Shown piece by piece: positions 15,758 to 61,691 of a DNA stretch of 64,000 nucleotides. A program made the position numbers and the translations under genes. Source of the DNA: Planctomycetales bacterium (GTDB lineage: Bacteria > 4484-113). The notes below the pieces were generated by a model, which saw only the letters and a list, made by a program, of their open reading frames with translations, searched no databases and was not told the origin of the DNA. Location: contig JAUWGS010000005.1 in assembly GCA_030606285.1 (NCBI GenBank), positions 66,716 through 130,715 of the forward strand. Direction: 5' to 3'. Within the stretch, counting starts at the first letter, position 1, and every line of letters starts with the position of its first letter.

Positions 15758-15763
15758 ATTATA
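15758..15763 (-). promoter_or_regulatory. -10 box of the fumarase beta/sdhCAB operon
   Basis: Perfect TATAAT on the minus strand, 10 bases before ATG 15747. The predicted leader is only three or four bases and no Shine-Dalgarno sequence fits in it. Confidence 0.5.
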
Positions 15764-15838
15764 GCAGACATGGCGCTAAAATGAAGGGGCTGAAACCTCA
15801 ACTGTGTTAGAATCTGCAACGAGACAAGGAGCTGCCCT

Positions 15839-16945
15839 ATGAGAAAAATACTGAACTGGGCAAGGCTTCTCGCCATACTGGCAGTCGCCATAGTGACCCT
15901 TTCCGCGTGTGGCGGAGGCGGAGAGATTCTGCTCGGCTACTACCTCTACAAACAGTTCATCGATGAGGGCGGGAACTCAAGGATATGGCACGGGACTGTT
16001 AGCGACACAAACGGTCAGGCTCTCCCCGGTTATCTGGTGGAGGTAACGGCCAACCGTCCGGATCCTGCCGGTGATGAGCGTCGCAGCACGGAGACCGACG
16101 ACAACGGCGAGTACAGTATCGTGATGCCATGGTATGAGGTCGCCTCCTACGAGATAACCGTTATGCATGAAGGTATCACGGTCTACCACGATGAGATAGG
16201 CCCGGTCTTCAACCACGACCAGGCCAGAGACATCCAGGTATCACCTGTGGCCACGGTCACAGTCAGCGGGACAGTCACAGACAGCAACTCCGCTCCGCTG
16301 CCACAGGTCTTCGTGGCGGTGGCCAAGCCGGCGTCAATCGGCACCGAACCGGACACACTTGTCGCCCAAGCGGAAGGCGGCGCGAACTACCAGTTGACGA
16401 ACAGCACGGGCGTCTATTACTTCGAAGACATATTCGGCGAACCGCTTCTTGTGGCGGCATTCCATCCTTCGCACGGGTTCGGGTATTTCTACATTGAAGA
16501 ACCCTCGCCCATCAATTCCGGCGGCACCGTCATTATGCCCGGTGCAGGGCAAGTCGAGATCCGCGTTAGAGTCCTCGACTCAACAGGCGAACCGCTCGAA
16601 AACGCGATTCTCCCCGTGGACTACCGCTTCTCGCTAAAGTTTGTTCCGGCGTACGATCTTTCAAGCCAGATTGCCCTTGCGGTTGCGGACGCGGGCCTCT
16701 TCAGCAACATCACCGCTGAAGAAGTGATTGCGCTGCATCCCGTGAGCGGCAGCCTTCAGGTTTCCAGCACAGGCACCGAGGGGTTTGCCGATATCGCTTT
16801 CGAGGTCACCGCAGGGCTTTACCGGCTCACGCTGGAAGACACACAGGGAGGAACCTTCGTGGGCGTGCTGGTCGGGCTGGAGACTCGCGTGCTTCACGAT
16901 GCAGCAAGCGGTGAGATTGTCGAAGTTCGCATCCCGCTCAGCTAG
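15839..16945 (+). CDS. lipoprotein with carboxypeptidase-regulatory-like (CarbopepD_reg) domains
   Basis: The 368-residue precursor has the signal MRKILNWARLLAILAVAIVTLSAC with lipobox TLSA|C, then CGGGGEILL. Two transthyretin-like folds are suggested by repeated patterns: HGTVSDTNGQALPGYLVEV with DDNGEYSIVMPW at about 50-105, and SGTVTDSNSAPLPQVFVAV with NSTGVYYFEDIFG at about 142-205. A third related segment begins IRVRVLDSTGEPLENAILP. Such domains are cell-surface binding or spacer modules. The ATG has AAGGAG eight bases upstream and a TAGAAT -10 at 15808. The gene is divergent from the fumarase operon and overlaps the next gene tail-to-tail by 8 bases. Function unknown. Confidence 0.8.
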   Translation: MRKILNWARLLAILAVAIVTLSACGGGGEILLGYYLYKQFIDEGGNSRIWHGTVSDTNGQALPGYLVEVTANRPDPAGDERRSTETDDNGEYSIVMPWYEVASYEITVMHEGITVYHDEIGPVFNHDQARDIQVSPVATVTVSGTVTDSNSAPLPQVFVAVAKPASIGTEPDTLVAQAEGGANYQLTNSTGVYYFEDIFGEPLLVAAFHPSHGFGYFYIEEPSPINSGGTVIMPGAGQVEIRVRVLDSTGEPLENAILPVDYRFSLKFVPAYDLSSQIALAVADAGLFSNITAEEVIALHPVSGSLQVSSTGTEGFADIAFEVTAGLYRLTLEDTQGGTFVGVLVGLETRVLHDAASGEIVEVRIPLS

Positions 16946-18323
16946 ACCGGCCGTCCGAAACTGGAAGCCATTCGACGAGCCTTACATCGTCCGATGTGAG
17001 CAGAAGCAGCTTCTCGCCGAACATGAGCGGTCGGCAAACGGCGGGTTCCCCATCCACAGGAACTCTCACATCCTGACCCGTCTTTCGATCGATTAAATGG
17101 GGCACGCCCTGAGCACTGAGGGCCGTCATACACCCTGGGCACTCTACCAGAAACAACAGTTCATTACCTGCAGAAACAAGCTCAAGCCCCGTACCAAAGT
17201 CGGGAATGGCCGGGCGAGACCAGACTTCGGCTCCACCACGGCTCAAGCGCAGACTTTCCGGTGATAGAGCAAGCGTCTCGTCCCCGCTCAAATCCTCGCT
17301 CCACGTTCTGACGCTTGACGGCGGCTCCTGGATTTCCCTGAAAGCCCGGTCAACTTCCGCAAGCCACCTCTCATCGTCGAGCAGCTTCATTCCGCCTTGC
17401 CGCAGATCCAGCTCCGCGACCTTGAGCTTCCGTTTCCCGGAATCGTAGGCCGGGAACCGCAGAGTGTATCCGCGCACTTCCACCGGCAAGACGTCAAGGA
17501 AGTTGATGTACGGATATTGTGTTTTCGAAGCCGGGATGATGGCATTCGGGGCATGCCACATCACCCGCCCGGATTCTGCGTCCAGCAAAATGTATTCTCC
17601 ACTGGCGTAGTCGTGCTGACCGTATAGCAGGTGTACTTCCTGCCCCGTGTAGAGCAGCTCCAGATCTGTGAGCAGCCTGCGCGCTGTGACTACCGAGACC
17701 CAGACGACACTGCCGCCCTGCGTCAGAGCAGTGAGCCTCAGGTCTTTTGCCCAGGGATAGAAGTAGTCTGCGCCGGAACCACGCGGTGTATAAGTCAGGA
17801 GCAGCGGCGGTGAACTGCTGGCGTCCTGCAATGCTCGCCAGTCACGGCCAGTTGGTGTGAGCGCGAATGTGTTCTCATAGTGGACCGCGGCGCCGGGGTT
17901 CCGCGTGTCAATCACGTAGGCGGCATACTCCGCTGGCCTGGTTTCGAGCGCTTCACCCAGGTGCACTGCCAGCACAATGTCTTCTCCGAAAACGTACGCG
18001 GCATACCCGTCTTTCCGGTAGAGCACGCAACCCTCTTGGTCCAGCAACAGAAAACCGCAGCTCAACGAATCATCCACGTAGCTCACGAGCAGCGTGCCGT
18101 TCGAAAGCTCGCTGTACGTGTAGGGTATGAGTGGAGTCCTGAGCTTGCGTATGTGCCACTCGCTCGTGTCCAGATCGACAACAGCAAACACTCTTCCGCC
18201 CTGAAACCAGGCGGTAACCAGATGCTCCGCAGCTCTCCACGCATCCGCCCTACCCTGCTCATTGCAGGCGCCAAAAGCAGCCGCCAGCGCAATCAGAAGA
18301 AACAGGAGATGCAAAGCGCGCAC
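16938..18323 (-). CDS. putative lipoprotein, possibly beta-propeller-like, unknown function
   Basis: The precursor of about 461 residues starts with a lipoprotein signal (RALHLLFLLIALAAAFGAC, lipobox AFGA|C). The rest is beta-rich with repeated segments of the type GGRVFAVVDLDTSEWHIRK, DQEGCVLYRKDGYAAYV and LDAESGRVMWHAP. These resemble blades of PQQ-like propellers, but the motif is not clear enough to name a family. GTG 18323 is chosen because TAGAAT (18330-18335) directly abuts the ATG at 18329, so a transcript from that box would start at the GTG six bases downstream; ATG 18329 would add two residues. The stop lies inside the end of the convergent lipoprotein gene. Confidence 0.65.
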   Translation of the reverse strand: MRALHLLFLLIALAAAFGACNEQGRADAWRAAEHLVTAWFQGGRVFAVVDLDTSEWHIRKLRTPLIPYTYSELSNGTLLVSYVDDSLSCGFLLLDQEGCVLYRKDGYAAYVFGEDIVLAVHLGEALETRPAEYAAYVIDTRNPGAAVHYENTFALTPTGRDWRALQDASSSPPLLLTYTPRGSGADYFYPWAKDLRLTALTQGGSVVWVSVVTARRLLTDLELLYTGQEVHLLYGQHDYASGEYILLDAESGRVMWHAPNAIIPASKTQYPYINFLDVLPVEVRGYTLRFPAYDSGKRKLKVAELDLRQGGMKLLDDERWLAEVDRAFREIQEPPSSVRTWSEDLSGDETLALSPESLRLSRGGAEVWSRPAIPDFGTGLELVSAGNELLFLVECPGCMTALSAQGVPHLIDRKTGQDVRVPVDGEPAVCRPLMFGEKLLLLTSDDVRLVEWLPVSDGRSS

Positions 18324-18329
18324 GTTCAT

Positions 18330-18335
18330 ATTCTA
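18330..18335 (-). promoter_or_regulatory. -10 box, leaderless layout
   Basis: TAGAAT on the minus strand with exactly six bases to the in-frame GTG at 18323. No Shine-Dalgarno sequence is present. Confidence 0.4.
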
Positions 18336-18448
18336 CATCACTGAGGAGTGTCTGGAACGTCTGCACGCAAAGCAGCGGGGACGCATCATGGCGGAGGTCG
18401 CGCCCCGGCGAATAGAACTGCCGACTGTCTTGCAGTGGATTCCGGAGT

Positions 18449-19003
18449 CTATCCGAAGCTGACTTTCGGCGCTTCGCGCGCGGCTTCTTCGATCTCGAAG
18501 TAGTCGTGCGCGACAAGACCCATCATTCCCGCAACGACATTGTCGGGGAACCTCTGCCGCTTCGCATTGAAAGCAAGAACCACGTCGTTGAAGTGCTGGC
18601 GCGCGTAGGCGATCTTGTTCTCTATGGCAGACAGCTCCTCCTGTAGCTGGAGAAAGTTCTCGTTAGCTTTCAAGTCCGGGTAAGCCTCGGCAACCGCAAA
18701 GAGGCTCTTCAGCGCGCCGGTCAGGAGGTTCTCCGCCTCGCCCTGATCGCTCACGTTCTGGGCGGAGATTGCGTTGGAGCGAGCTTCCGTCACCTTCTGA
18801 AAGACTTCACGCTCGTGCTTCGCGTAGCCTTTCACCGTCTCCATCAGATTTGGCACCAGGTCGTACCGCTTCTTTAGCTGCACGTCCACCTGCGCCCAGC
18901 TTCCCTCTATCCGGTTGCGCAGCACGACAAACCGGTTGTAGAAGGCGATGAACCATAAAACGATAATGACGATTACGGCAATGATTACCCAAAAGACCCA
19001 CAT
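18449..19003 (-). CDS. lemA: LemA family protein
   Basis: The 184-residue product has an N-terminal membrane helix (VFWVIIAVIVIIVLWFIAFYN) and the LemA helical domain. Characteristic segments are LRNRIEGSWAQVDVQLKKR, YDLVPNLMETVKGYAKHE, LQEELSAIENKIAYARQHFND and FNAKRQRFPDNVVAGMMG. LemA proteins are membrane-anchored, mostly cytosolic or periplasmic helical bundles of unclear role. Length is typical. GAGAGG lies before the ATG. It is divergent from the Gld-type ABC operon with about 200 bases between them. Confidence 0.93.
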   Translation of the reverse strand: MWVFWVIIAVIVIIVLWFIAFYNRFVVLRNRIEGSWAQVDVQLKKRYDLVPNLMETVKGYAKHEREVFQKVTEARSNAISAQNVSDQGEAENLLTGALKSLFAVAEAYPDLKANENFLQLQEELSAIENKIAYARQHFNDVVLAFNAKRQRFPDNVVAGMMGLVAHDYFEIEEAAREAPKVSFG

Positions 19004-19102
19004 AGGTTACCTCTCAGGGGTTTTGTACTGGCCACGATTATATCACGCAACACAACGGGTAGAGCAGACGCAATCCCGCTGACCGTTGAACAAAGATGGT
19101 CG

Positions 19103-19163
19103 AGCATCCACCTAACCCAATGTTGGCTTGGGTATAATCCACCTGTTGACAGCGGTGGATGCT
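19103..19163 (+). promoter_or_regulatory. promoter with nested inverted repeats upstream of the ABC operon
   Basis: A TATAAT -10 box (19133-19138) is enclosed by 10-bp inverted repeats AGCATCCACC (19103-19112) and GGTGGATGCT (19154-19163). Inside these ACCCAA/TTGGGT arms (19114-19119, 19127-19132) run up to the -10 box. A second ATCCACC (19137-19143) can pair with the same right arm. The symmetry around the promoter looks like an operator or alternative hairpins. No regulator is identified. Confidence 0.45.
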
Positions 19164-19206
19164 GCGCTAAAATCACTTGCCCGCATTATCGAGGAGTGTT
19201 GCTGAA

Positions 19207-20139
19207 ATGATAGAGGTTGAGAACCTCACCAAACGTTTCGGTTCCACGGTTGCCGTGGACGCAGTGAGCTTCGCCGTGAAGCCCGGGGAGGTCGTTGGCT
19301 TCCTCGGCCCAAACGGCGCGGGAAAAACCACAACCATGCGGATCATCACCGGGCTCATCTACCCGCAGTCCGGCACCGCCCGTGTAAACGGGAGGGACAT
19401 CTGGGATGAACCGGTGGAAGTCCGCAGGCTTCTCGGCTATCTGCCCGAGGCTACTCCGCTCTACGACGAGATGAGCGTTACGGATTTTCTGCGGTTCGTC
19501 GCAACCGTGCGGGGCATCCCGTCCAGAGATATCCCCGCCAGAGTCGACAAGATGATCGACGTTTGCTCATTGCAGACGATGGCGTTCAAGGATATCTCAG
19601 AGCTTTCGCGGGGATTCCGTCAGCGCGTCGGCCTTGCCCAGGCGCTCATACACGACCCACCGGCACTCGTACTGGACGAGCTGACCAGCGGCCTGGACCC
19701 TTCGCAAATCCTGGAAATCAGGCGGCTCGTGCGTGAACTCGGCAAGGAGAAGGCTATCCTGTTCTCCACCCACATTCTCGACGAAGCCAACAAGACCTGC
19801 GACCGCATCCTAATCATCGATGACGGGCGTCTAGTCGGTGAAGGCAGCCCGCACGACCTTGCCGCCATGGCCAGCGGCGAAGCTGTATACAGCCTTGAAT
19901 TCAAGGGCGACGCGGAACTGTTCACGGAGAAGCTGCCCAATCACTTCAAGGTTGTGCACAGTCGGCCGGGCGCTGAAGGCTACACCGGGATGGAACTCAC
20001 CTGTTCTGACTCGGTGGATCACAGCGAAGATCTCTTCGATCTTACCGTCGCCGTCGGCGGCAAGCTGCGGCAGCTCTCACGTAAGGAAGCCACTTTAGAG
20101 GATGTCTTCCTGGAACTTACCAAGGGGGGTGAAGCGTGA
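19207..20139 (+). CDS. ABC transporter ATP-binding protein (GldA/NatA-like)
   Basis: This 310-residue ATPase has Walker A GPNGAGKT, Q-loop region GYLPEATPLYDEMSV, signature LSRGFRQRVGLAQAL and Walker B LVLDE, then LTSGLDP and the switch His in FSTHIL. The usual Pro of DEPTSGLD is Leu here (DELTSGLD), a small oddity next to the intact catalytic Glu. The C-terminal domain continues about 90 residues as in DrrA/GldA proteins. ATG 19207 has GAGGAG ten bases upstream; TTG 19177 is rejected. It is the first gene of a four-gene operon whose partners form a Gld-type ABC-2 exporter. Confidence 0.92.
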   Translation: MIEVENLTKRFGSTVAVDAVSFAVKPGEVVGFLGPNGAGKTTTMRIITGLIYPQSGTARVNGRDIWDEPVEVRRLLGYLPEATPLYDEMSVTDFLRFVATVRGIPSRDIPARVDKMIDVCSLQTMAFKDISELSRGFRQRVGLAQALIHDPPALVLDELTSGLDPSQILEIRRLVRELGKEKAILFSTHILDEANKTCDRILIIDDGRLVGEGSPHDLAAMASGEAVYSLEFKGDAELFTEKLPNHFKVVHSRPGAEGYTGMELTCSDSVDHSEDLFDLTVAVGGKLRQLSRKEATLEDVFLELTKGGEA

Positions 20140-20864
20140 TGCGGCAGGTTCTGGCGATCTACCGAAAGGAATTGCGGCTCTACTTCGACAGCCCCATCGC
20201 GTACATCTTCATAATTGTGTTTCTCGCGATAACGAGCTGGCTGTTCTTCCGCACCTTCTTCCTTATTAGAGTCTCCTCCATGAGAAGCTTCTTCACAATC
20301 ATCCCCTGGCTCTGCATGTTCTTTATCCCGGCAGTCTCGATGCGCCTATGGGCGGAGGAGCGAAAGACCGGCAGCAACGAGCTCCTGATGAGCCTGCCCC
20401 TTCAGGAATGGGAGGTCGTGCTCGGCAAGTACTTGGCGGCTCTAACTGTGTATGTCGTCGCCATCATTCTGACGACCCCGCTGGCAATCGTGGTCGGGGC
20501 GCTGGGCTCTCCGGAATGGGGCGTGATCGTGGGTAGCTACCTGGGATGCATTTTCCTGGGCGCGGCTATCCTCGCAATCGGCACGTTCATTAGCTCCCTC
20601 ACGAGCAATCAGATTGTGGCGTTCATCGTAAGCGTCATCATCGTCGCCGGGCTAACCATCGTCGGGCAGCCGCTGGTGACGATGTTCCTGCAGGGACCGC
20701 TGATTGTCCTCGTGCCCTACGCTGAATGGCTCGGGCTGGCAAACCACTTCAGCAGCATATCGCGCGGCGTCATCGACAGCAGAGACATCATCTACTACAT
20801 CCTTCTAACAACGCTGCCGTTATACCTTACTGTCAAGTCAATCCAGGCGAGTAAGGTAGGGTAA
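20139..20864 (+). CDS. ABC-2 type permease (GldF-like)
   Basis: The roughly 241-residue protein has six hydrophobic segments. It starts MRQVLAIYRKELRLYFDSPIAYIFI, the pattern of GldF/ABC-2 permeases, and contains MRLWAEERKTGSNELLMSLP, a cytoplasmic coupling segment seen across this family. ATG 20139 overlaps the ATPase stop (TGATG) and GGGGGG lies upstream; GTG 20136 is equally possible. Partner of the preceding ATPase in an export complex of unknown substrate. Confidence 0.9.
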   Translation: MRQVLAIYRKELRLYFDSPIAYIFIIVFLAITSWLFFRTFFLIRVSSMRSFFTIIPWLCMFFIPAVSMRLWAEERKTGSNELLMSLPLQEWEVVLGKYLAALTVYVVAIILTTPLAIVVGALGSPEWGVIVGSYLGCIFLGAAILAIGTFISSLTSNQIVAFIVSVIIVAGLTIVGQPLVTMFLQGPLIVLVPYAEWLGLANHFSSISRGVIDSRDIIYYILLTTLPLYLTVKSIQASKVG

Positions 20865-20866
20865 TC

Positions 20867-25112: not shown

Positions 25113-25876
25113 CTGCGGCGTGCCCAGTGCGCGCGGAAGAAGAACAGCGCCAGCGCGGTTGAGACTCCCAGATTAAGCGACTCCACGCCTTCCTGCATCG
25201 GTATGGTTAGCCTGAAGTCGCTCTTTTCTTTCAGCATCCGGCGCACGCCGCGTTCCTCGCGGCCCACGATGAATGCGGTTCGCCGGGGGAAGTCGAAGCT
25301 GAAGATACTCTCGCCCTCGTGAGCGTCCAGAGTGACCACCCAGAACTCATGCTTCTTGAGGCGGTCCACCGCCTGGGACAGATTCTCTCCGATGACGATT
25401 GAGGTGCGGTATGTCGCGCCGGCGGATACCTTGTGCACCGTGCAGTTCACCGGCGCTGTTCCGTGTTTGGGCAACACAACGGTGGCACCGGCTGCAGCGG
25501 CTGAACGGATGACGGCACCCAGATTCTGCGGATCGTTCACTCCGTCAAGCAGAAGTATCGAGGCTACATTTCCCAGCTTGGGAAGCACCTCACCCAGCAG
25601 CGCACCGGTGTAGGGCTCCGTGATTCCAGCAACCCCTTGATGCGAGAAGCCTTCCAGCACGGGAAACCAGGGGGCGTCCTCCAGCGGCTCAACGGGCAAG
25701 CCTGCTTCGCAAGCCGCCTTCCTTAGCTGCGCAAGCCGCTTTGAAGTGCTCTCAAGTAGGAACAGGCGACGCAGTGCGCCGGCCTGCAGCGCTTCGAAAG
25801 CAGGGTTAATCCCGTACACGAAGTGGTCGGGCAGTTGAGATGTATGGAGTTTGTCGCGCCGTAGCTTGCCGCCCAC
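25109..25876 (-). CDS. rlmB: TrmH/RlmB-family 23S rRNA 2'-O-methyltransferase
   Basis: The 255-residue SPOUT methyltransferase has an N-terminal substrate domain (HFVYGINPAFEAL) and the catalytic domain motifs LLLDGVNDPQNLGAVIRSA, FIVGREERGV and IPMQEGVESLNLGVSTA. In the best-known members it methylates the ribose of G2251 in 23S rRNA using S-adenosylmethionine; other TrmH-type targets cannot be excluded. The GTG start at 25876 has no ribosome binding site but lies exactly six bases after TAGAAT. An intrinsic terminator sits just upstream of that box. Confidence 0.9.
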   Translation of the reverse strand: MGGKLRRDKLHTSQLPDHFVYGINPAFEALQAGALRRLFLLESTSKRLAQLRKAACEAGLPVEPLEDAPWFPVLEGFSHQGVAGITEPYTGALLGEVLPKLGNVASILLLDGVNDPQNLGAVIRSAAAAGATVVLPKHGTAPVNCTVHKVSAGATYRTSIVIGENLSQAVDRLKKHEFWVVTLDAHEGESIFSFDFPRRTAFIVGREERGVRRMLKEKSDFRLTIPMQEGVESLNLGVSTALALFFFRAHWARRS

Positions 25877-25882
25877 ACTTAC

Positions 25883-25888
25883 ATTCTA
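25883..25888 (-). promoter_or_regulatory. -10 box of rlmB, leaderless layout
   Basis: TAGAAT on the minus strand with six bases to the GTG start. It abuts the U-tract of the terminator at 25891-25919. Confidence 0.45.
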
Positions 25889-30208: not shown

Positions 30209-31575
30209 CAGAAGCACGCCCTTATGAAAAGCAGCAGCAACAAGACCCCACCGCTGACCGCAGCTACTTCTTCAATCTGCTTCAGGCGCTTCTCTCCGGT
30301 TGTGAGAGCCTCCGGTGGTTCGCGCATCCCTCTGAAGTCGTAGTAGCAAATCTCGCTGTCACCGGCTCTGGAGATTGACCAATCGCAGACTCTTGAAGTA
30401 TCGAAGTCCGGAACAGGCTCAGCTTCCTGTTCCTCGTCTTCCACCTCCTCGCCGTCTGCGGCCTGGGCGTATTCACGTGTCGCGCGAAACATCTCGTCCA
30501 ATCGCCGCATCCGCTCGTAGTCAGTTTTGGGCGGCGAGACATACACCCGGCGCGGTCCTTTCGGCTCAGGCGGAAGCACGTCGAGCACAGATTGCTCAGT
30601 CACCTGCTCGCCGGACAACACCCACTTGAACTCCGAAGCCTCCAGCAGCCGGTCTCCGCTCAGACTCTGGATCACGTTCTTCAGCTTCGCTTCGCGCCAG
30701 AGCATGTAGTTCCTCACATCCGGATTCAGCACGCGCTTTAGTCTCAGGCCGCAGGACTCTCTCAGCGCGAGCACCGGCAGGCCGTCCTGTTCAAGCGCAT
30801 GGCTGTAAACGAACTTTGCCAGAGTCGTCAGATACGGATTGCGCTCCTTTATGTAAATAGCATCGTTTTTTAGCGTGATGGCAGCGCGGTGGTGATCCCC
30901 GCACTCCAGCTCGGTGAGCGCGCGTAGTATATGAATGGTAACGTCCAAGTTGTCCCGGCTCGGGCGGTCTTCCGCCGAGAGGACGTCGCGCGCCGCAGCA
31001 AAGTCACCCGCCAAACAGTGAATCTCACCCGCCAGCACGCGCATCTCATCGTGCCAGCTCACGAGGTTCTGCAACTCCCGCAGCACGCGCAGAGCTTCCC
31101 CGCTCTCGCCGGATTTCCACAACGCAACTATCAGCATCATCGAGACGCCATAGTAGTCCAGGTACACGGGAAAGAACTGGAACCGGCTGATTCGCAACAA
31201 GATACGAAACGTCGGCATGAACCGGCGCACCAGGACGCCCGTTCCTGCCTCGACCTTCCGCGCAGCCCGGAGGTGCTTCACAGCCTCGGAAAAGCGACCC
31301 TCGCGCAGCGCGAGCATTCCAGCCAGCGCGGACGCTTCAGCGTAATCCGGTGTCAGCGCCAGCGCTCCGGCGAGCTCAGCCTGTGCGCCTGCGTCATCGT
31401 ACTCCGCAAGCCGTCCCAGAGCCGCCCGCAACCTCCTCTCTTCCGCCTTGAACAGCAGTTGTGCCAGGCGCGGCACTCGTGGTTCAACCAGCGTGTCCAC
31501 TTCATACGCCGTGTAGGCGGGTTGTATCACTGAAAGCGGAAGGTTGTTGAAGCTGACGCACTCCATCGTGAGCAC
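30208..31575 (-). CDS. TPR-like helical membrane protein
   Basis: The 455-residue protein is mainly helical. From about residue 40 to 300 it has TPR-like hairpins (LALTPDYAEASALAGMLALREGRFSEAVKHLRAARKVE, and CLAGDFAAARDVLS). The C-terminal part is low-complexity acidic, then a predicted membrane helix near the end (SGGVLLLLLFIRACF). This topology places the repeats in the cytosol with a tail anchor. GTG 31575 lies six bases after TATAGT; ATG 31566 is the alternative. It follows tonB by 106 bases. Confidence 0.72.
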   Translation of the reverse strand: MLTMECVSFNNLPLSVIQPAYTAYEVDTLVEPRVPRLAQLLFKAEERRLRAALGRLAEYDDAGAQAELAGALALTPDYAEASALAGMLALREGRFSEAVKHLRAARKVEAGTGVLVRRFMPTFRILLRISRFQFFPVYLDYYGVSMMLIVALWKSGESGEALRVLRELQNLVSWHDEMRVLAGEIHCLAGDFAAARDVLSAEDRPSRDNLDVTIHILRALTELECGDHHRAAITLKNDAIYIKERNPYLTTLAKFVYSHALEQDGLPVLALRESCGLRLKRVLNPDVRNYMLWREAKLKNVIQSLSGDRLLEASEFKWVLSGEQVTEQSVLDVLPPEPKGPRRVYVSPPKTDYERMRRLDEMFRATREYAQAADGEEVEDEEQEAEPVPDFDTSRVCDWSISRAGDSEICYYDFRGMREPPEALTTGEKRLKQIEEVAAVSGGVLLLLLFIRACF

Positions 31576-31581
31576 CAGTGA

Positions 31582-31587
31582 ACTATA
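31582..31587 (-). promoter_or_regulatory. -10 box of the TPR gene, leaderless layout
   Basis: TATAGT on the minus strand, six bases before GTG 31575; no ribosome binding site close by. Confidence 0.4.
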
Positions 31588-42383: not shown

Positions 42384-43324
42384 TAGAAAAACCGCTGGTG
42401 GCAGTACTCGTAGCCCTCGGTATGCGGCTCCAGAACGACCGCAACGATGTCAATGCCCAGACTGCGCAGGTGCGCCAGAGCACTGTCCAGCGTCGTTCTT
42501 ACCTCTATAAGCAGCGCATTCTCCAAAACCGCCTTCACTGCCAGATGCTCATTCTCGTCCTGTGCCCTCGAATGGCGATAGAAATACTCGCCGCAGATAA
42601 CCAGCACTTCGCGGGATTGTGGCAAGCCCTCGCCAGTCGCATCAGGCTCCCGATGCCTTGCGGAGTCCTCACCGGATTGACGCGTCAGCTCCACGAGCTG
42701 CCCCCCCGCGAGATGGTACACGCCGGTAAACACATCCATATGCCCAAAGAAACGCGCACTCGTCAGTATCGCCGTGCCTGCTCCCGCCTTGTGCCACACG
42801 TGCAGATTACGCGCAACACGCTCGCATGTGGCAAAGGAGAAACGTGAAAGGTAGTCGTCAACGAGCAGGTAATCGGGTTCAGCGGCAAGGGCGCAGAGCA
42901 GTTCAAACTCAAGCACCTGGCTCTGGGGCAACGTGTCTAACCGCAGGCGCCGCATGTCTTCCTCGCTCCACGGAAGATGGAAGCGCTGCAACATCTCGTG
43001 CGGGTTCGCCCTTCCCGTGCCCTGCTTGATCTGGTGCGCAAACAGGTTCCAGAGGGTACCGACCCCTTCAGCCGAGGTCTCCCTTCGGAGATACTCGATG
43101 CGCGGAAGATCCGGCCCGAACAGCCCGTAGACGGGGACCGAACCCAGCAGTACCTTTCCCGCGTTTGGCCGTCGGCGCCCTCCGATAACGTCAAGGAGCA
43201 CCGTCTTCCCGGCACCATTGGCGCCCAGAATCAGGAATACGCCGGGCTCCGCAAGCTCCAGAGTCAGGTTGTCGAGCACCTTCTTAGCGCCGAAGGAAAC
43301 CGTCACGCCCTGCAAGAAGATCAC
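42383..43324 (-). CDS. ABC-like ATPase with degenerate signature and Walker B
   Basis: The 313-residue protein has an N-terminal ABC ATPase domain: VSFGAKKVLDNLTLEL, Walker A GANGAGKTVLLD, and DYLLVDDYLSRF at the Walker B position, where the catalytic Glu is Asp. The LSGGQ signature is replaced by LPQSQ. The last 90 residues are a separate domain (REVLVICGEYFYRHSRAQDE...). No permease is adjacent. It may be a non-transport ABC protein or a weak ATPase. The GTG start lies six bases after TATAAT. Confidence 0.75.
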   Translation of the reverse strand: MIFLQGVTVSFGAKKVLDNLTLELAEPGVFLILGANGAGKTVLLDVIGGRRRPNAGKVLLGSVPVYGLFGPDLPRIEYLRRETSAEGVGTLWNLFAHQIKQGTGRANPHEMLQRFHLPWSEEDMRRLRLDTLPQSQVLEFELLCALAAEPDYLLVDDYLSRFSFATCERVARNLHVWHKAGAGTAILTSARFFGHMDVFTGVYHLAGGQLVELTRQSGEDSARHREPDATGEGLPQSREVLVICGEYFYRHSRAQDENEHLAVKAVLENALLIEVRTTLDSALAHLRSLGIDIVAVVLEPHTEGYEYCHQRFF

Positions 43325-43330
43325 GCGTGG

Positions 43331-43336
43331 ATTATA
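43331..43336 (-). promoter_or_regulatory. -10 box of the ABC-like gene, leaderless layout
   Basis: Perfect TATAAT on the minus strand with six bases to the GTG start at 43324. Confidence 0.5.
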
Positions 43337-43361: not shown

Positions 43362-44036
43362 CTACCAGGGCAGATAAAGAGGCATCTCTTCCCGCTTGAT
43401 GAAGCTAAACTTGAAATCGCCCACGGAGATGCTCACACCGCGCCGCACCTCGTAGCGCTCCGGCTCGAAGTACACTTCGCCGACGAAGCGGCAGTCAATG
43501 TTGAAGTACATGCCGTAGCCCTGGAAGGGGAAGAGCATTGTGTAGAGCCCCTCCTTCCGGTCGCAATATATTGCATAGGGATAAAGGGTTATCGAGGTTA
43601 CTTGGTCTATGTACGTAACGTAATGTTGCATCCGGCGCGTGGAGTACACAAAGACGCGCGACACCACCGCTGTGAGATCCAGGCCCTCTTCGGTGAAACG
43701 CCGCTTGCCCAGGCGCTTGCTCTGGCGGAACTCGATGTAGACTTCCTGGAAGTCGCGCTGGCCATCAACCCAGTCTCGCCACTCATAGTAGAAGTAGCGG
43801 TTGTTCACGATTGCCTTGGGTTTGCCCCGGCGTTCGAGCATTTCTTCAAGCGTGGTTGTCCCCGGAGTAATCCCGCGGAAGACTTTCACCAGGCTGGGCT
43901 CGTAGTAGTAGGGGAACGGGTAGTAAAACGCGCCGCCATGAGGCGCGGGTCTTATCCGGCTGTGCGATGGTGCAGCCGTCAACAATACGAACACCGTCGT
44001 CGCCAGCACTACCCAGAGACTGCGTGCACCCAGCAT
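43362..44036 (-). CDS. secreted hypothetical protein
   Basis: The 224-residue precursor has a signal peptide (LWVVLATTVFVLLTAAPSHS). The mature start is Pro/Tyr-rich (GGAFYYPFPYYYEPS). The motif ITPGTTTLEEMLERRGKPKAIV resembles the small outer-envelope SmpA/BamE-type start (G.t....v...lG.P), followed by a large beta-rich domain. The function is not known. TATAAT lies eight bases before the ATG, overlapping a GTAGGTGG sequence. It is divergent from the glycosyltransferase gene. Confidence 0.7.
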   Translation of the reverse strand: MLGARSLWVVLATTVFVLLTAAPSHSRIRPAPHGGAFYYPFPYYYEPSLVKVFRGITPGTTTLEEMLERRGKPKAIVNNRYFYYEWRDWVDGQRDFQEVYIEFRQSKRLGKRRFTEEGLDLTAVVSRVFVYSTRRMQHYVTYIDQVTSITLYPYAIYCDRKEGLYTMLFPFQGYGMYFNIDCRFVGEVYFEPERYEVRRGVSISVGDFKFSFIKREEMPLYLPW

Positions 44037-44044
44037 CCACCTAC

Positions 44045-44050
44045 ATTATA
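44045..44050 (-). promoter_or_regulatory. -10 box of the secreted hypothetical gene
   Basis: TATAAT on the minus strand with eight bases to ATG 44036, another near-leaderless layout. Confidence 0.45.
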
Positions 44051-44071
44051 CCGGCACATCCGGCCGCGTGC

Positions 44072-44077
44072 TAAACT
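44072..44077 (+). promoter_or_regulatory. -10-like box of the glycosyltransferase gene
   Basis: TAAACT, six bases before GTG 44084. No ribosome binding site is present. Confidence 0.35.
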
Positions 44078-44083
44078 TGCACC

Positions 44084-45163
44084 GTGCACGTCGTGCTGGA
44101 CGGTCAAGCGCTTGTGGGGGGGATACCCACCGGATTCGGCATTTACGCCAAACTCGTGGCAAGCGCGCTGGAGCTGATTGCAGGGCGTGAAGAGAGCTTT
44201 TCCCACAATATCGCCTATCCCCATCCCAGGGATAAGCCTCTAGCAAGCGTATGGCAGCGCGTGCTGTGGGAGCAATACATCCTCCGGTCAAAATGCCGCG
44301 AAACGCTTAGCCCTGCGCTGCTGCATTCCCCCTGTCTCGGCGCGCCGCTCTTCCCTCCCCTGCCGCTGGTATGTACCGTGCACGACCTCATCCTGCTCGA
44401 CGAAGAAATCCCCGGAATATTCGCCCGGGAGTACTTCACACGGCTCGTTCCCGCAGGCTGGCGACAGGCGAAACTCGTGCTCACGGACACTGAGCATGTC
44501 CGCCAGAAGGTCATCGAACGACTGCGCATCCCGGCGCATCGGATCGTATCCCTGCCGCTCTACAGCCGATACGAAAGCTCGCAGCCAAGATGGCAGCCGC
44601 CTGAAGGGCCGCCGCGCTTCCTGATGATTGGAACGGTTGAGCCGCGCAAGGGATTCACCACCGCCATCGGCGCACTCGCGCAATTGCCCGAGCCTTTGAG
44701 AAGCGATGCCCGCCTGGTGATAGCGGGCAAACGCACGCCGCACACGGTCGAGCTTATTTCGCTGGCGCAGCGGCTGGGAGTTCAGCAGTCGGTGGAGTTC
44801 ATCGATTACCAGCAGGAGCTTACGCAGCTCTACCTGGGCGCATCGGCACTGGTGTTTCCCAGCCTTGATGAGGGCTTTGGACTGCCGCCACTGGAGGCGA
44901 TGAGCTTAGGTGTGCCGGTTCTCATTAGCAGCATTGAGGTGCTCCGCGAAACTTACGAGCAAGTAGATGAAGTCACCAATCCAGGGATGTTCCCCGCCGG
45001 CAGAGAGAGCGCCCTTGCCGGGCTTATGCGGCAAGTCCTGGAGGACAGCGGTTTTACTGCGAGCCTGACGAGCTTCGGCAGCCTGATTGCCGGACAACTA
45101 ACACAGGAGAGATTCGCTGACGGCTTGCTCGCGGCATACCGCCGCGCGATAGAGAGGTCGTGA
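44084..45163 (+). CDS. glycosyltransferase family 4 (GT-B fold)
   Basis: The 359-residue enzyme starts HVVLDGQALVGGIPTGFGIYA, a GT4 N-domain glycine loop. The C-domain has FLMIGTVEPRKGFTTAI, the conserved sugar-nucleotide segment, and ALVFPSLDEGFGLPPLEAM, the E-x7-E motif of GT4 enzymes. It transfers a sugar to an unknown acceptor, probably in envelope polysaccharide synthesis. GTG start. The PaaK-like gene follows after 22 bases. Confidence 0.9.
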   Translation: MHVVLDGQALVGGIPTGFGIYAKLVASALELIAGREESFSHNIAYPHPRDKPLASVWQRVLWEQYILRSKCRETLSPALLHSPCLGAPLFPPLPLVCTVHDLILLDEEIPGIFAREYFTRLVPAGWRQAKLVLTDTEHVRQKVIERLRIPAHRIVSLPLYSRYESSQPRWQPPEGPPRFLMIGTVEPRKGFTTAIGALAQLPEPLRSDARLVIAGKRTPHTVELISLAQRLGVQQSVEFIDYQQELTQLYLGASALVFPSLDEGFGLPPLEAMSLGVPVLISSIEVLRETYEQVDEVTNPGMFPAGRESALAGLMRQVLEDSGFTASLTSFGSLIAGQLTQERFADGLLAAYRRAIERS

Positions 45164-55745: not shown

Positions 55746-55793
55746 GGTGATGCCTTTACTAGCCGTAAGAATAGCGGTTCAACGCAGCATCGA

Positions 55794-56081
55794 TTATTTC
55801 GCTTCTCCCCTGAGGAGGGTGGCTATAATTCCCACCAGCCCGACAATGAGAATCGCCGCCCCGATGAGAAGGAAGGTTATATAAGTTACTATGTAAGGAT
55901 GAGCCAGGTCAGTGGTAATCATCTTATAGTAGGGATTAATGTTATGTTCAGACCACTCCATCATGCCCATGTCCAATAACCCAAGCTGCGCCATGGTACA
56001 GCTTCGAGCCAGTAGCATGAGAATGACACCCGCGAGGGCTACAGTCCCTGAGAAGATCAGGGCGGTTGTCTGCTTCATCAT
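55794..56081 (-). CDS. small two-helix membrane protein
   Basis: The roughly 95-residue product has two hydrophobic helices (TALIFSGTVALAGVILMLLA and YITFLLIGAAILIVGLVGII) separated by a Met/Asn/Tyr-rich loop. The tandem ATG at 56081/56078 follows GAGAGG; a TATGAT -10-like box lies further upstream. A longer open frame to 56267 is rejected because it would run through the PLP-enzyme fragment. No family recognised. Confidence 0.6.
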   Translation of the reverse strand: MMKQTTALIFSGTVALAGVILMLLARSCTMAQLGLLDMGMMEWSEHNINPYYKMITTDLAHPYIVTYITFLLIGAAILIVGLVGIIATLLRGEAK

Positions 56082-56134
56082 AATAGCTTGACCTCTCAAT
56101 GCCAAAATCATAGCATACACAGCCAGCTTCCCCG

Positions 56135-56235
56135 CTACCCCAGCGACTGCTGCAAATCGGCAACAATATCCGCCGCGTCTTCCAATCCCACCGACAGGCG
56201 CAGCATTTCGGGCAGTAACCCTATTGCGCGCCGCT
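56135..56235 (-). pseudogene. C-terminal fragment of a Cys/Met-metabolism PLP enzyme, copy B
   Basis: The minus strand gives ERRAIGLLPEMLRLSVGLED then AADIVADLQQSLG and stop, nearly the same as copy A at 54798-54897. Again only the C-terminus is present. The intact enzyme gene is not in the window. The 115 bases from here to mqnC hold short palindromes (GGGCTGGTGAGCCC) and no gene. Confidence 0.8.
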
Positions 56236-56350
56236 CGCCTTTCCCCCTCTGAGTACGCGGCGCTCACTAGCGCCGCTCTGAATCGCCGGGCTGGTGAGCC
56301 CGGCCTACCCGGTTAAGAGCCTTCCCTGGCTACCGGCCACTGGCCCCTGG

Positions 56351-57445
56351 CTATTCCAACAACTCATACTGCGTCGTGCGGCGCTGGGGCGTGAAGCCGG
56401 CCTTTGAGATCAACCGGCGGAGTTCCGCTTCGGTCATCGCGTAACTCGTCCCGGCGGCGGCGACGACGTTTTCTTCGAGCATCGTGCCGCCCATGTCGTT
56501 TGCGCCGAACATCAGCGCAAGCTGCCCCACCTTCGGCCCCATCGTTACCCACGACGCCTGCAAATTCTCAAAGTTACTAAGATACAACCGCGCCACCGCA
56601 AGCGTCCGCAGGTAATCCAGCCCACCCACAGCCGTGCCGCCCAGCGCGGTGTTCTCCGGCTGGTAGGTCCAGCAGATAAACGCGGTGAAGCCCCCCGTTT
56701 CGTCCTGCAATGCGCGGATGCGCTCCAGGTGCTCGATGCGCTCGGCGAGCGTCTCCACATGCCCGAACATCATCGTCGCCGTAGTGCGCATCCTTAAGCC
56801 GTGCGCCTCACGCATCACGCCAATCCACTCGTCGGCGGTGCACTTGTGCGGCGACACTTCGCTGCGCACGCGGTCGGATAAAATCTCCGCGCCGCCTCCG
56901 GGCAGGCTGTCCAGCCCCGCCTCGCGCAGTCTGCTTAACACCTCGCGCACCGGCATCCCGAAAAGCCTGCTAAAATGCACAACTTCCGGCGGCGAGAACG
57001 AATGCAGCGTCGTTTTAGGAAAGTCGCGCTTGATGCAGCGCAACAGGTCTAAATACCACTCGAACGGCAGCGAAGGATGGTGCCCGCCCTGCATCAATAT
57101 CTGCTTCGCGCCAAGCTCCACTGCCTCGGTGATCTTCGCCCTTATCACCGGCTCGTATTGATTGACGTACGCATCCTCGTCGCCGATATCGCGCGAGAAT
57201 GCGCAGAAGCGGCAGCGGCTGATGCAGACATTCGTGTAATTGATATTGCGGTCGACGACGTAGGTCACAACTCTTGGCTCAACACGCTTAAGCCGCAACT
57301 TGTGCGCCGCGCGCCCAAGCTCATGGATATCGCCCGCACGCAGCAGAAGCTCGCCTTCTTCGCAGCTCAGGCGTCCGCCAGCCACCGGTTTTGAGCAGAG
57401 CTTTCCGGTTTCGTCAATCGGGAGGCTGCTCGGCTTATCCGACAT
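56351..57445 (-). CDS. mqnC: cyclic dehypoxanthinyl futalosine synthase
   Basis: The 364-residue radical SAM enzyme cyclises dehypoxanthinyl futalosine in menaquinone synthesis. The CX3CX2C cluster motif is NINYTNVCISRCRFCAF. Family marks are TTATMMFGHVETLAERIEHL, QASWVTMGPKVGQLALMFGA and NDMGGTMLEENVVAAAG. Length is typical. It follows mqnA by five bases and ends the operon. Confidence 0.95.
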   Translation of the reverse strand: MSDKPSSLPIDETGKLCSKPVAGGRLSCEEGELLLRAGDIHELGRAAHKLRLKRVEPRVVTYVVDRNINYTNVCISRCRFCAFSRDIGDEDAYVNQYEPVIRAKITEAVELGAKQILMQGGHHPSLPFEWYLDLLRCIKRDFPKTTLHSFSPPEVVHFSRLFGMPVREVLSRLREAGLDSLPGGGAEILSDRVRSEVSPHKCTADEWIGVMREAHGLRMRTTATMMFGHVETLAERIEHLERIRALQDETGGFTAFICWTYQPENTALGGTAVGGLDYLRTLAVARLYLSNFENLQASWVTMGPKVGQLALMFGANDMGGTMLEENVVAAAGTSYAMTEAELRRLISKAGFTPQRRTTQYELLE

Positions 57446-57450
57446 GCAGG

Positions 57451-58215
57451 CTACTTCGCGAGCTTAGCGAGCTTGAGTTCATGCACCTTCTGGCGGAAAA
57501 ACTCGAGGAAATCCAGATCGCGGGGCGAAAGCCGGAAGTGCAGCGCCTTGCCGAAGTAATCCACCAGGGCCTTGTGGCTCACCTGCCATTCCCGCTCCGC
57601 GAACTTGCACAGCCCGTCCCAGTCTTCCTCGACTTTGGCGTAGGCTTCCTCCAGTATCCCCACAAGGTCATCCGAGACCGGCTCGCTGCCCTGCCACATT
57701 GCAAACACGACCGGCAGCTTGAACAGCTTGTCAATCAGCGCGGCAATGTCGTAGGCATAATGGTACGTGAACTGCGGATGGAAATTCTGGTCGCCGATGA
57801 TCACGCGGCCGATTTTTGGCTGGAGCTTCGCGCGGACGTCTCTGGCAGGTGTAAACTTCACGCGCTGTTGTCGTTCGTTGAAGATAATGCGGGTCAGCGC
57901 GTTGCTGGTTAGGCTGGCCGGGTCCTCTTCAACCACGGTCACCTTATCCAGCGGATCCTGCGAGTAGATCATCACCGTTATCACCCGGCCCTCGGCAGCC
58001 ACGCAGAGGTCGGTTATCCGGCTGCGCAGCTTCGCGGCGTACACGAATGACGAAGTGAGGGCTGCATCGAGCTTCCCCTCCCGCATCAGGTGGAACAGCT
58101 CCGCCGGCATCCCCCACGTAGGCTTCACGCGCGGGTGGTCCTGCAGCCCGTGAACGAGCGGCAGCGCATTGAGAAACGGTAACAGTCCAACTCTAAACTT
58201 CTTGGGCATCTTCAT
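57451..58215 (-). CDS. mqnA: chorismate dehydratase
   Basis: The 254-residue protein of the MqnA/MqnD family dehydrates chorismate, the first futalosine-pathway step. It has RVGLLPFLNALPLVHGL, GKLDAALTSSFVYA and a periplasmic-binding-like two-lobe layout with VIIGDQNFHPQF and FAMWQGSE. It lies between mqnE (22-base overlap) and mqnC, which favours MqnA. ATG 58215 or 58209. Confidence 0.92.
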   Translation of the reverse strand: MKMPKKFRVGLLPFLNALPLVHGLQDHPRVKPTWGMPAELFHLMREGKLDAALTSSFVYAAKLRSRITDLCVAAEGRVITVMIYSQDPLDKVTVVEEDPASLTSNALTRIIFNERQQRVKFTPARDVRAKLQPKIGRVIIGDQNFHPQFTYHYAYDIAALIDKLFKLPVVFAMWQGSEPVSDDLVGILEEAYAKVEEDWDGLCKFAEREWQVSHKALVDYFGKALHFRLSPRDLDFLEFFRQKVHELKLAKLAK

Positions 58216-59308
58216 CCACCGGTTCGTATTCGCGCATATCCCGATAGAGCGCGTCGCGCATAATCGGTTTCAGCCCGGCGCCCCTAATGATACCAGCAAG
58301 CTCGCTAATGGTCACCCCTTTGGGCGCAGTGGCTCCAGCAGCGTGATAGATTCGCTCATACACTACAGTGCCGTCCACGTCGTCCGCGCCCCAGAGGAGC
58401 ATCACCTGCGCGAGCTTCAACCCGTATTCCACCCAGTAGGCCTTGATGTGGGGGAATTTGTGGAGCGCGACGCGCGACGCGGCCACGTGGCGCAGATCCT
58501 CCACGCCGGTGGTGAACTCGCCGCCCAACCGGTTCCCCACCGGATGGTACGCCAGCGGTATGAACGCCTGAAAACCCCCTGTCTCATCCTGCAAGTCGTA
58601 GAGCTGGAGCAGATGTTCAGCTTTCTGCTTGGGCGTCTCCACATGGCCGTAGAGCATCGTGGCGTTCGTGGGAATCCCCAGCTCGTGCGCCGTGCGGTGC
58701 ACAGCGAGCCATTCGTCTCCCGAAATCTTGTCCGGGCAAATCTGTAAGCGCACTTCGTCAGCGAATACCTCCGCCCCTCCACCGGGCATCGCATCCAGTC
58801 CCGCGTCTTTTAGGTCGAGGAGCGTATCGCGCACGCTCATACCTGACAGCTCAGCCATCCATGCTACTTCCACTGCGGTAAACGCCTTTAGCTGCACCTC
58901 CAGGAAGGCTTCGCGCAGTGTCGTGAGAATCCCCCGATAGTATCCGTAATCCGCCAGCTCGCGCGGCGGGATTGCGCCAACAATGTGAAACTCCCGCACG
59001 TCCTGAACACCATCGGCTTTCAGGCTCTCCACAATCTCGTCCGGCTGCAGAAAATAGGCATCGTCATCTGTAGCATCAGCGCTGAAGGAGCAGAACAGGC
59101 AGCGGTTCTGGCAGATGTTCGTGTAGTTTATATGCCGGTTTGCCACGACATACGTGCGGTCGCCGTGCAGCTTCATGCGAATTTCGTGCGCCAGCCCGCC
59201 CAGCCAGTGAAGGTCGGCGTCGGTGAGTAGGAACACGACTTCATCCGGCGTCAGCCGCTCGCCGGACAGGGCCTTGCGCTCGATGGTTGATTGGACGGAG
59301 TCCCGCAC
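58193..59308 (-). CDS. mqnE: aminofutalosine synthase
   Basis: The 371-residue radical SAM enzyme makes aminofutalosine from the MqnA product and S-adenosylmethionine. The cluster motif is HINYTNICQNRCLFCSF. Other marks are DRTYVVANRHINYTNIC, DAMPGGGAEVF and IPTNATMLYGHVETPKQKAE, which separate it from MqnC. The GTG start lies eight bases after TAGAAT and has no ribosome binding site. It is the first gene of mqnE-mqnA-mqnC. The nucleosidase step (MqnB or MTAN) and MqnD are not in the window. Confidence 0.94.
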   Translation of the reverse strand: MRDSVQSTIERKALSGERLTPDEVVFLLTDADLHWLGGLAHEIRMKLHGDRTYVVANRHINYTNICQNRCLFCSFSADATDDDAYFLQPDEIVESLKADGVQDVREFHIVGAIPPRELADYGYYRGILTTLREAFLEVQLKAFTAVEVAWMAELSGMSVRDTLLDLKDAGLDAMPGGGAEVFADEVRLQICPDKISGDEWLAVHRTAHELGIPTNATMLYGHVETPKQKAEHLLQLYDLQDETGGFQAFIPLAYHPVGNRLGGEFTTGVEDLRHVAASRVALHKFPHIKAYWVEYGLKLAQVMLLWGADDVDGTVVYERIYHAAGATAPKGVTISELAGIIRGAGLKPIMRDALYRDMREYEPVDEDAQEV

Positions 59309-59316
59309 TGCCGCGT

Positions 59317-59322
59317 ATTCTA
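59317..59322 (-). promoter_or_regulatory. -10 box of the mqn operon
   Basis: TAGAAT on the minus strand with eight bases to GTG 59308. Confidence 0.4.
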
Positions 59323-59383
59323 TGCGACTTGCGCTTCTTCAACAAGCACTGTCCGCCAGCCGTATTCGCTTCCGCCCATCTGC

Positions 59384-59408
59384 TATAATTGAGCTTCAGT
59401 CAGGAGGG
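59384..59408 (+). promoter_or_regulatory. -10 box and ribosome binding site of dnaN
   Basis: TATAAT at 59384-59389 and AGGAGGG at 59402-59408, six bases before ATG 59415. One of the clearest promoter/Shine-Dalgarno pairs in the window. Confidence 0.6.
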
Positions 59409-59414
59409 ACAACT

Positions 59415-60539
59415 ATGAAACTCACCATCTCCCAGGAAAAGTTGAGCCAGGCGCTCAACCTTGTCAGCAAGGCGGTCTCCAGCCGCACGCTGAACCTGGT
59501 TCTCGCTCACATCCGGTTCCAGGTGACGAAGAAGAGCCTGACGCTCACCGGGTCGGACGGCGATTTCACGATCGAACACACGGTCGATACCGAGGGAGAA
59601 CGTGAAGGCGCGCTGCTAGTGCCCGCGCGACTCTTCGTCGACCTCATCACGAGGCTGCCCAAAAAGGACGTGACGCTGGAGCGCCAGGACGGGATGCTCA
59701 AGATTGTAAGCGGCTACTCGGATTACTCCATCAACATCCTGCCCGACGAGAACTTCCCCAGCCTTCCGCTGTTCGAGGAAGGTAAGCTGGCGCAGCTTCC
59801 CGCCGGACTGCTGAGGAGCGCCCTGGGGCGAACCACCTTCAGCGCCCTCAAAGACCCCAGCGGGACCACGAGCCACTATACGCACGGCGTGCTGCTCAAC
59901 TTCCACGAAGACAACCTGGACATCGTGGCAACGGACGGGCACCGCCTGGCGCTGGAGCGAATGGACAATCCCGCGCCGGAAATCAAAGACCGCAGCCTGC
60001 TGGTACCCACTACAATCACCGAGGAGCTAAGGCGGGCACTGCCGAGCGAAGAGGATAAGACCGTCGAGATCTACTTCCTGAGCAACCAGGTCTTCTTCAA
60101 GTTCGATAACAGCGTCTTCGGCGGATCGCTCTTCGACATCAAGTACCCCGATTACCTGAAGGTAGTGCCCAAGGAAACCAAATCCGTCGCCAACGTAAAC
60201 CGCAGCGCGTTGCGTGAGGCGCTTCAGCGCGTCCTCATTGTGTTTAAGGTAAAGGAGCAGAATCCGGTCGTCCGGGTGGAGACCAGCGGTGACAGCCTGG
60301 TCATCTCAAGCGAATCCCAGGATGTTGGCAAAGGCGTCGAGGAAATGCCGTTCACTCAGGGCTCGCCTTTCGCGGACATACGCATCGCTATCAACCCGGC
60401 GTATCTGGCTGATGTTCTCGCGGTGGTGGACGCGGATACCGTTGACCTGCACTGGACGAGCGAAGTGAACCCGCTGAAGCTGGAGCTTCCGGAGAAGCCC
60501 GGTTACACTTATATTGTGATGCCCATCCGGATGGACTAG
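59415..60539 (+). CDS. dnaN: DNA polymerase III beta sliding clamp
   Basis: The 374-residue protein forms the ring clamp that tethers polymerase to DNA. Three repeated clamp domains are seen, with LVSKAVSSRTLNLVLAHIRF at the start, VATDGHRLALERMD in the middle and the C-terminal YTYIVMPIRMD, matching the (M)PxR(M/L) end. The open frame extends upstream to 59223, but the ATG has a perfect ribosome binding site. dnaA is not next to it, an unusual placement. csrA-like follows after 48 bases. Confidence 0.96.
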   Translation: MKLTISQEKLSQALNLVSKAVSSRTLNLVLAHIRFQVTKKSLTLTGSDGDFTIEHTVDTEGEREGALLVPARLFVDLITRLPKKDVTLERQDGMLKIVSGYSDYSINILPDENFPSLPLFEEGKLAQLPAGLLRSALGRTTFSALKDPSGTTSHYTHGVLLNFHEDNLDIVATDGHRLALERMDNPAPEIKDRSLLVPTTITEELRRALPSEEDKTVEIYFLSNQVFFKFDNSVFGGSLFDIKYPDYLKVVPKETKSVANVNRSALREALQRVLIVFKVKEQNPVVRVETSGDSLVISSESQDVGKGVEEMPFTQGSPFADIRIAINPAYLADVLAVVDADTVDLHWTSEVNPLKLELPEKPGYTYIVMPIRMD

Positions 60540-60587
60540 GAACAGTCGCAGTTGCCCGGAGGGGTGGGCTTTGGCGGAAAACCCGAA

Positions 60588-61070
60588 TTGCTGGTACTTA
60601 CGAGAAAGCCTGGCGAACGTGTCTTGATCGGCCCGTCGATCAGGATGGAGTTTGTTGGCGTAGACGCAGAACATCAGGCTCGTCTGGGTTTTTCCTCAAC
60701 TCAACACCTTAAGCTGGTCTCGCCGGACATTTCGCTTGATTGCGATATGCCTTCTGGTAGCCCCGATGAGCCGGTAAAGCACGAAGTCGCCCTTGCGGTC
60801 GACCAGAAGGTCAAGGTGAACGATGTGATTGAAGTCACGGTGGTCGCAGTAAAAGGCGAGCAAGTCCGCATCGGGCTGGAAGCCCCCGACGAAATCTACA
60901 TCTTTCGCGAGGAAGTGCACGCTGAGATCCTGCAAGAGAGCATTCAGGTGGCGCAGAAGGAAAGTGAACTCACCGGCGATGAGCTTCCGCGTCCTCCCTT
61001 CGGCCTTGCTCAGGGCGGTGAGCCAGCCGAACCGCCACGGGACATCGAAGACGAGCCGCCCGCTGACTAG
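60588..61070 (+). CDS. CsrA-family protein with two tandem CsrA folds
   Basis: The 160-residue product from TTG 60588 begins LVLTRKPGE like canonical 61-residue CsrA, but two CsrA-like units follow. Unit 1 (1-48) keeps the beta1 LTRK, while its beta5 reads KLVSPD. Unit 2 (64-117) has a beta1 HEVALAVDQK without the TRK, but keeps VKGEQVRIGLEAP and IFREEV with Arg107 equal to Arg44. A Pro/acidic tail of about 43 residues follows. Only one composite RNA face (beta1 of unit 1 with beta5 of unit 2) retains the key residues. The frame is open to GTG 60564 and TTG 60552; start uncertain. Confidence 0.85.
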   Translation: MLVLTRKPGERVLIGPSIRMEFVGVDAEHQARLGFSSTQHLKLVSPDISLDCDMPSGSPDEPVKHEVALAVDQKVKVNDVIEVTVVAVKGEQVRIGLEAPDEIYIFREEVHAEILQESIQVAQKESELTGDELPRPPFGLAQGGEPAEPPRDIEDEPPAD

Positions 61071-61081
61071 CGCTCCCGCAT

Positions 61082-61678
61082 CTACTCGATTGCGCCGAGC
61101 AGACCCGGCAACCCGCACTCCTTAAGCAGGCGGTCAAGCAGGTTCAGCGGCATGCCAACAACGTTAAAGAAATCACCGCTTATCCTTCGCACCAGGACAC
61201 CACCGACTCCCTGAATTGCGTAAGAGCCAGCCTTGTCCATAATCTGGGCTTTCTCAATGTATATATCCTCTTCCGCTGGCGAGAGTGAGCCGAACGTGAC
61301 ATCCGTGCATTCCGCATCACAACGGCACTTACCGCGACAGTGCACCGCCAGTCCCGTGACCACAAGATGCGTGCGGTCATAGAGCCTGCGCAGTGTGGCG
61401 CGGGCATCGTCCAGGCTCGCAGGCTTGCCGTAGATGCGCCCGTCGGCGTGCACAATCGTATCCGCGGAGATGACCACGGCTTCCGGGTGCATCCGGGAGT
61501 GGGTCTCTCCCTTGCTGCGCGCGGCGTCGCACGCAAATCGAATCGCGCTGTCTCTGTCAACTGGCTTAGAGTAATCAGGCGCAAGATCCGTCTCCGGATC
61601 AATAGCCTTAAAATTCAGGCCGATGCCGCGCAGAACTTCGCGCCGTCGCGGTGACCGTGATGCGAGCACTACTTCCAT
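61082..61678 (-). CDS. maf: Maf-family nucleoside triphosphate pyrophosphatase
   Basis: The 198-residue protein hydrolyses non-canonical or surplus nucleoside triphosphates. It begins [20 protein letters not shown], the nucleotide-binding Maf signature, and has [18 protein letters not shown] with the catalytic Asp, and [13 protein letters not shown]. An unusual Cys-rich loop ([11 protein letters not shown]) lies near 114-124. The ATG is seven bases after TATAAT and has no ribosome binding site. It is divergent from mnmG. Confidence 0.93.
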
Positions 61679-61685
61679 AACTGCT

Positions 61686-61691
61686 ATTATA
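61686..61691 (-). promoter_or_regulatory. -10 box of maf, leaderless layout
   Basis: Perfect TATAAT on the minus strand with seven bases to the ATG, which would be the first transcribed codon. Confidence 0.55.

Follow-up and report, generated by a model that had tools for sequence, protein, structure and literature searches.

Leaderless transcription from extended -10 promoters as the likely explanation for start codons six to eight bases behind a TATAAT-like box in a diderm bacterial lineage

Eight genes in the window (the whole 64,000-nucleotide stretch of DNA that was analysed) carry a -10-like hexamer six to eight bases ahead of the start codon. On the minus strand, maf reads TATAAT-N7-ATG (61676-61691, with the first base of the start codon at 61678), and a gene for an ABC-type ATPase (Pfam ABC_tran) reads TGcTATAAT-N6-GTG (43322-43336; start 43324). 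Also on this strand are rlmB, with TAGAAT-N6-GTG (25874-25888; start 25876), and a TPR gene with TGtTATAGT-N6-GTG (31573-31587; start 31575). The layout of a putative lipoprotein gene (18321-18335, minus strand; start 18323) is TAGAAT-N6-GTG, and an in-frame ATG at 18329 adjoins its -10 box. The gene for a putative secreted protein (44034-44050, minus strand; start 44036) has TATAAT-N8-ATG and lies back to back with the putative promoter of a GT4-like glycosyltransferase gene on the plus strand, TGcTAAACT-N6-GTG (44072-44086; start 44084). Finally, mqnE (NCBIfam MqnE; 59306-59322, minus strand; start 59308) has TAGAAT-N8-GTG. These eight combinations of hexamer, gap and start codon had been put forward in an earlier note on this DNA, and all eight read back exactly as given there.

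The contrast case is dnaN (59415-60539, plus strand), which starts behind a clear Shine-Dalgarno (SD) sequence (CAGGAGGGACAACT-ATG). Clear ribosome binding sites had been claimed for dnaN (59415) and for gene 51961, and SD sequences are indeed present in both. Directly downstream of dnaN lies a tandem CsrA gene, whose 168-aa product matches the CsrA domain twice (60564-61070, plus strand). The mqnE gene, found in only four of the ten genomes of the phylum, belongs to a row of futalosine-route menaquinone genes (56351-59308, minus strand), the others being of the VitK2_biosynth (MqnA/D-type) and mqnC-like radical SAM kinds.

The hexamer TANNNT is loose enough to precede any AT-containing start, and the eight cases could in principle reflect coincidence or the reader's selection. 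The raw counts agree with such a reading: on both strands of the window, TANNNT-N6-RTG, TANNNT-N7-RTG and TANNNT-N8-RTG occur 28, 30 and 18 times, against 26.4, 26.0 and 25.6 times in dinucleotide shuffles. Because the window counts do not exceed those of the shuffles, the loose pattern alone is no evidence. The spacing of TAKAAT to RTG, taken over both strands without restriction to gene starts, shows only a modest peak. Counts at gene starts, however, do separate signal from chance: TAKAAT before candidate starts is most frequent at a gap of six (24 occurrences), with 1-7 occurrences at most other gaps.

The draft genome around the window amounts to 2.30 Mb in 36 contigs, of which 1.09 Mb (about half) was sampled in stretches, and 823 genes were called in this sample by codon usage with a home-made gene caller. 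A mixture model, also home-made, picks for each gene a start codon and an upstream class (none, motif 1 or motif 2); its motifs and spacings are learned from random starting matrices, and the fit with the best likelihood out of eight random starts was kept. In that fit, motif 1 is TAtAAT, present in about 30% of the 823 genes with the gap peaking at 6, 7 and 8, and motif 2 is the SD-type AGGAGg, present in about 55% with a gap of mostly 4-8. Several random starts led to other motif solutions of lower likelihood, such as tAATCn, and these were rejected on that ground. The box at a gap of 6-8 is assigned to 14-16% of the 823 genes (14.4% as the model fraction), a share that is to be read with the caveat that the motif itself enters into the model's choice of starts. 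The 178 genes with a single candidate start are free of this circularity, and 17 of them have TANAAT at a gap of 6-8, versus about 1.4 expected. A posterior above 0.5 for a box at this gap was reached by 129 of the 823 genes, referred to below as class genes. Among the 56 genes in the window, the fitted model makes eight leaderless calls, and these are exactly the eight starts described above.

When each upstream region is shuffled, the motif and the spacing peak both vanish. The same model applied to 150 kb of Escherichia coli gives 1.9% and the motif dissolves. In 150 kb of plasmid MP1 from Deinococcus radiodurans, whose lineage is known for leaderless genes, the share is 11.5% and the gap peaks at 6-7. 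Together with the counts at gene starts and the single-candidate genes, the upstream shuffles and the E. coli control make coincidence or selection an extremely improbable source of the pattern. The genome-wide enrichment that the earlier note had proposed to look for is thus present in about half of the genome. The usual distance from a -10 box to the first transcribed base is 6-8 bp, and the enriched box sits, as had also been claimed, at the distance expected for transcription that begins on the start codon.

Several features of the class boxes bear on whether they are promoters. A TGn extension precedes 65 of the 129 boxes, versus 25% of all TANAAT hexamers in the sample. The -35 region of the class genes was searched for clear positional information and none was found; at spacers of 16-18, at least four of six matches to TTGACA occur in 18 of 129 genes, with 15 of 129 at control spacers of 32-34 and three of 129 at 24-26. 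Only four of the 129 class genes have an SD-like tetramer in the gap between box and start, the shortness of which itself limits the room for one. Where the box is 15-24 nt away, 21 of 54 genes have such a tetramer, in line with many of these genes being leadered. The start codons of the class comprise 64 ATG, 63 GTG and two TTG, so that GTG accounts for 49% of the class versus 21% of SD genes.

The class is also set apart by gene order. A co-directional gene lies within 25 nt ahead of 8% of class genes versus 43% of SD genes, and a divergent neighbour is found for 50% versus 21%. Class genes thus tend to stay out of distal operon positions, in keeping with genes that stand alone or lead an operon. 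Ten divergent pairs have two class starts, and all ten spacers measure 37-99 bp (median about 60); between SD-SD pairs the median is 339 bp. Random pairing would give 7.5 such pairs, so it is the short spacers, rather than the number of pairs, that are telling. The 47-bp spacer between the secreted protein and glycosyltransferase genes (44037-44083) contains two back-to-back -10 boxes and is too short to accommodate SD leaders; the relatives G001 and G002 show both boxes as well. Boxes are likewise placed back to back in nine further divergent spacers of the sampled loci.

This context weighs on the idea that the AT-rich box is a translational element, for example a site of S1 binding or an unstructured patch, that acts on a leadered mRNA and is no promoter at all. 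Either a Pribnow box or binding by S1 can indeed be behind an AT bias at -20 to -10 (Nakagawa 2017). However, a diffuse U-rich bias is not what is seen here: the signal consists of a defined hexamer at a fixed spacing, extended by TGn, and it clusters at genes that are divergent or come first in their operon. In addition, divergent spacers of 37-71 bp leave little room for upstream promoters and leaders. A purely translational role is therefore very unlikely.

A different objection accepts the -10 boxes as real and places the true starts further downstream, so that the mRNAs would be leadered and the start codons misassigned. Start prediction is generally uncertain, and a few orthologues do move the start downstream (TPR in G001 and G002, mqnE in G002). 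On the other hand, the peak is also seen in genes that have just one candidate start. In maf, in the glycosyltransferase and in several orthologues of rlmB, homology at the N-terminus extends right up to the start, and in pooled relatives the gap again peaks at exactly six. Misassignment of the starts must be judged most improbable.

Individual orthologues illustrate both the conservation and its limits. In the glycosyltransferase gene, TANNNT stands at a gap of 5-7 before RTG in all eight orthologues inspected, and in maf it stands at a gap of 6-9 before ATG or GTG in seven of eight genomes; outside the genus, the orthologues of these two proteins mostly share 37-50% identity. The maf match in the draft genome of G004 (locus L174) has one in-frame TAA, reflecting either a broken gene or an assembly error. 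The gap of six before rlmB is kept in G001 (GTG), G002 (ATG) and G008 (GTG). For the lipoprotein, G001 keeps TAGAAT-N6-GTG and lacks the alternative ATG, so that the GTG at 18323 is the conserved start. Orthologues of mqnE have a gap of nine in G001 and TAAAAT-N8-GTG in G008; in G002 (locus L110) the -10 box is kept and the codon at that place is ATC, not a start codon. The TPR orthologue of G001 (locus L182) similarly keeps its -10 box, with ACG at the gap of six, and in G002 the gene seems to start behind a leader with an SD sequence. For TPR in G001 and mqnE in G002, these codons would mean either that the leaderless start has been lost or that non-standard start codons are used.

The phylum consists here of ten genomes in four families, and seven relatives were sampled. 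Fitted singly, most of them show the box with a peak at a gap of 6-7. When the relatives are pooled (664 genes), one of four random starts gives the same TAtAAT with the peak at six, and the likelihood of that fit nearly equals that of a seeded fit. At a gap of 5-9, the class makes up 10-24% of genes in each of the seven relatives. Within the family, ten of 14 class orthologues stay leaderless versus two of 54 SD genes that switch into the class (p=2e-7). At the level of the order, six of 12 are kept versus 12 of 39 that switch in, a difference that is not significant (p=0.30), and the start mode thus turns over at larger distance. Taken as an ancestral and phylum-wide mode of expression, with recurring back-to-back promoter pairs in the 37-99 bp between divergent starts, the extended -10 leaderless arrangement is favoured with moderate confidence.

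What is observed, then, is the sequence layout, with its enrichment across genome and phylum, its gene-order context and its conservation. Leaderless transcription from extended -10 promoters is very likely the best explanation for the eight cited genes and for the 14-16% of the genome's genes that share their layout. The promoters would be of the main (sigma70-type) kind, with a -10 box that is often TGn-extended, stands 6-8 bp before the start codon and functions without a detectable -35 element. RNA polymerase would begin on the first base (A or G) of the ATG or GTG, or no more than 1-2 nt away from it, producing a leaderless mRNA. The location of the -10 box, with its gap of six to eight bases, is the reason for placing the mRNA start there; about one gene in seven probably has an mRNA that opens with the start codon. 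Translation would presumably fall to ribosomes able to accept an AUG or GUG at the 5' terminus, and the near absence of TTG (two of 129) fits loading of this kind. Most remaining genes would have leaders with SD sequences. Where transcription starts and how ribosomes load are both inferred from sequence; so qualified, the leaderless interpretation offered in the earlier note is supported by the enrichment and the spacing.

Genes of this kind are known from other bacteria. TA-led genes have been described in Acidobacteria, Actinobacteria, Aquificae, Chloroflexi, Deinococcus-Thermus, delta-Proteobacteria and others, with an average share of 13-27% in positive genomes of Acidobacteria, Aquificae, Actinobacteria and delta-Proteobacteria and of 39% in Deinococcus-Thermus (Zheng 2011, PMC3160421). 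As in those genomes, TANNNT or TATAAT is found here about 12 bp before the start, and such genes are mixed with SD-led ones; unlike those groups, the present lineage is a small diderm phylum of ten genomes. The earlier note had remarked that leaderless mRNA is not common in most diderms. The organism itself is rightly counted among the diderms, since Omp85 is carried by all ten genomes of the phylum, but leaderless genes are not as unusual among diderms as that remark implied, given the presence of Acidobacteria, Aquificae, delta-Proteobacteria and others in the survey of Zheng 2011. Deinococci resemble the phylum in carrying Omp85 (as seen in the control genomes) and in having, under the same model, a class at gaps 6-7 of about 11.5% in D. 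radiodurans MP1, although the MP1 box is weaker (TCtAcT, from a small sample) than the clean TAtAAT found here.

According to the account of Lomsadze 2018 given in PMC9581028, leaderless transcription is predicted in 21.6% of bacterial species and in up to 40% of transcripts. The leaderless genome class of GeneMarkS-2, as far as that account describes it, resembles the present case in mixing SD and promoter signals upstream of genes; here, in contrast, the case comes from a draft-genome lineage and is backed by comparison across a phylum. In mycobacteria, a leaderless start requires no more and no less than an ATG or GTG at the 5' end (Shell 2015, PMC4633059), and 127 of the 129 class starts are likewise ATG or GTG. 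The mycobacterial rule was tested experimentally in Actinobacteria, whereas the present one concerns a different phylum and comes from sequence. A literature search for leaderless genes in MAG-based work or in Armatimonadetes found nothing, and no earlier report was found for this lineage, which may have been mentioned under the phylum's own name. Since Zheng 2011 and Lomsadze 2018 describe leaderless genes widely, what is added is a further lineage with an already known kind of gene expression.

Because about one start in seven lacks an SD sequence, -10 boxes have to be part of any model that predicts starts in such genomes. Promoters pared down to a -10 element would be simple to study in the back-to-back leaderless pairs. 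More generally, the finding adds a diderm lineage that would mix leaderless and SD initiation, and it is relevant to the question of an ancestral origin of leaderless initiation in bacteria.
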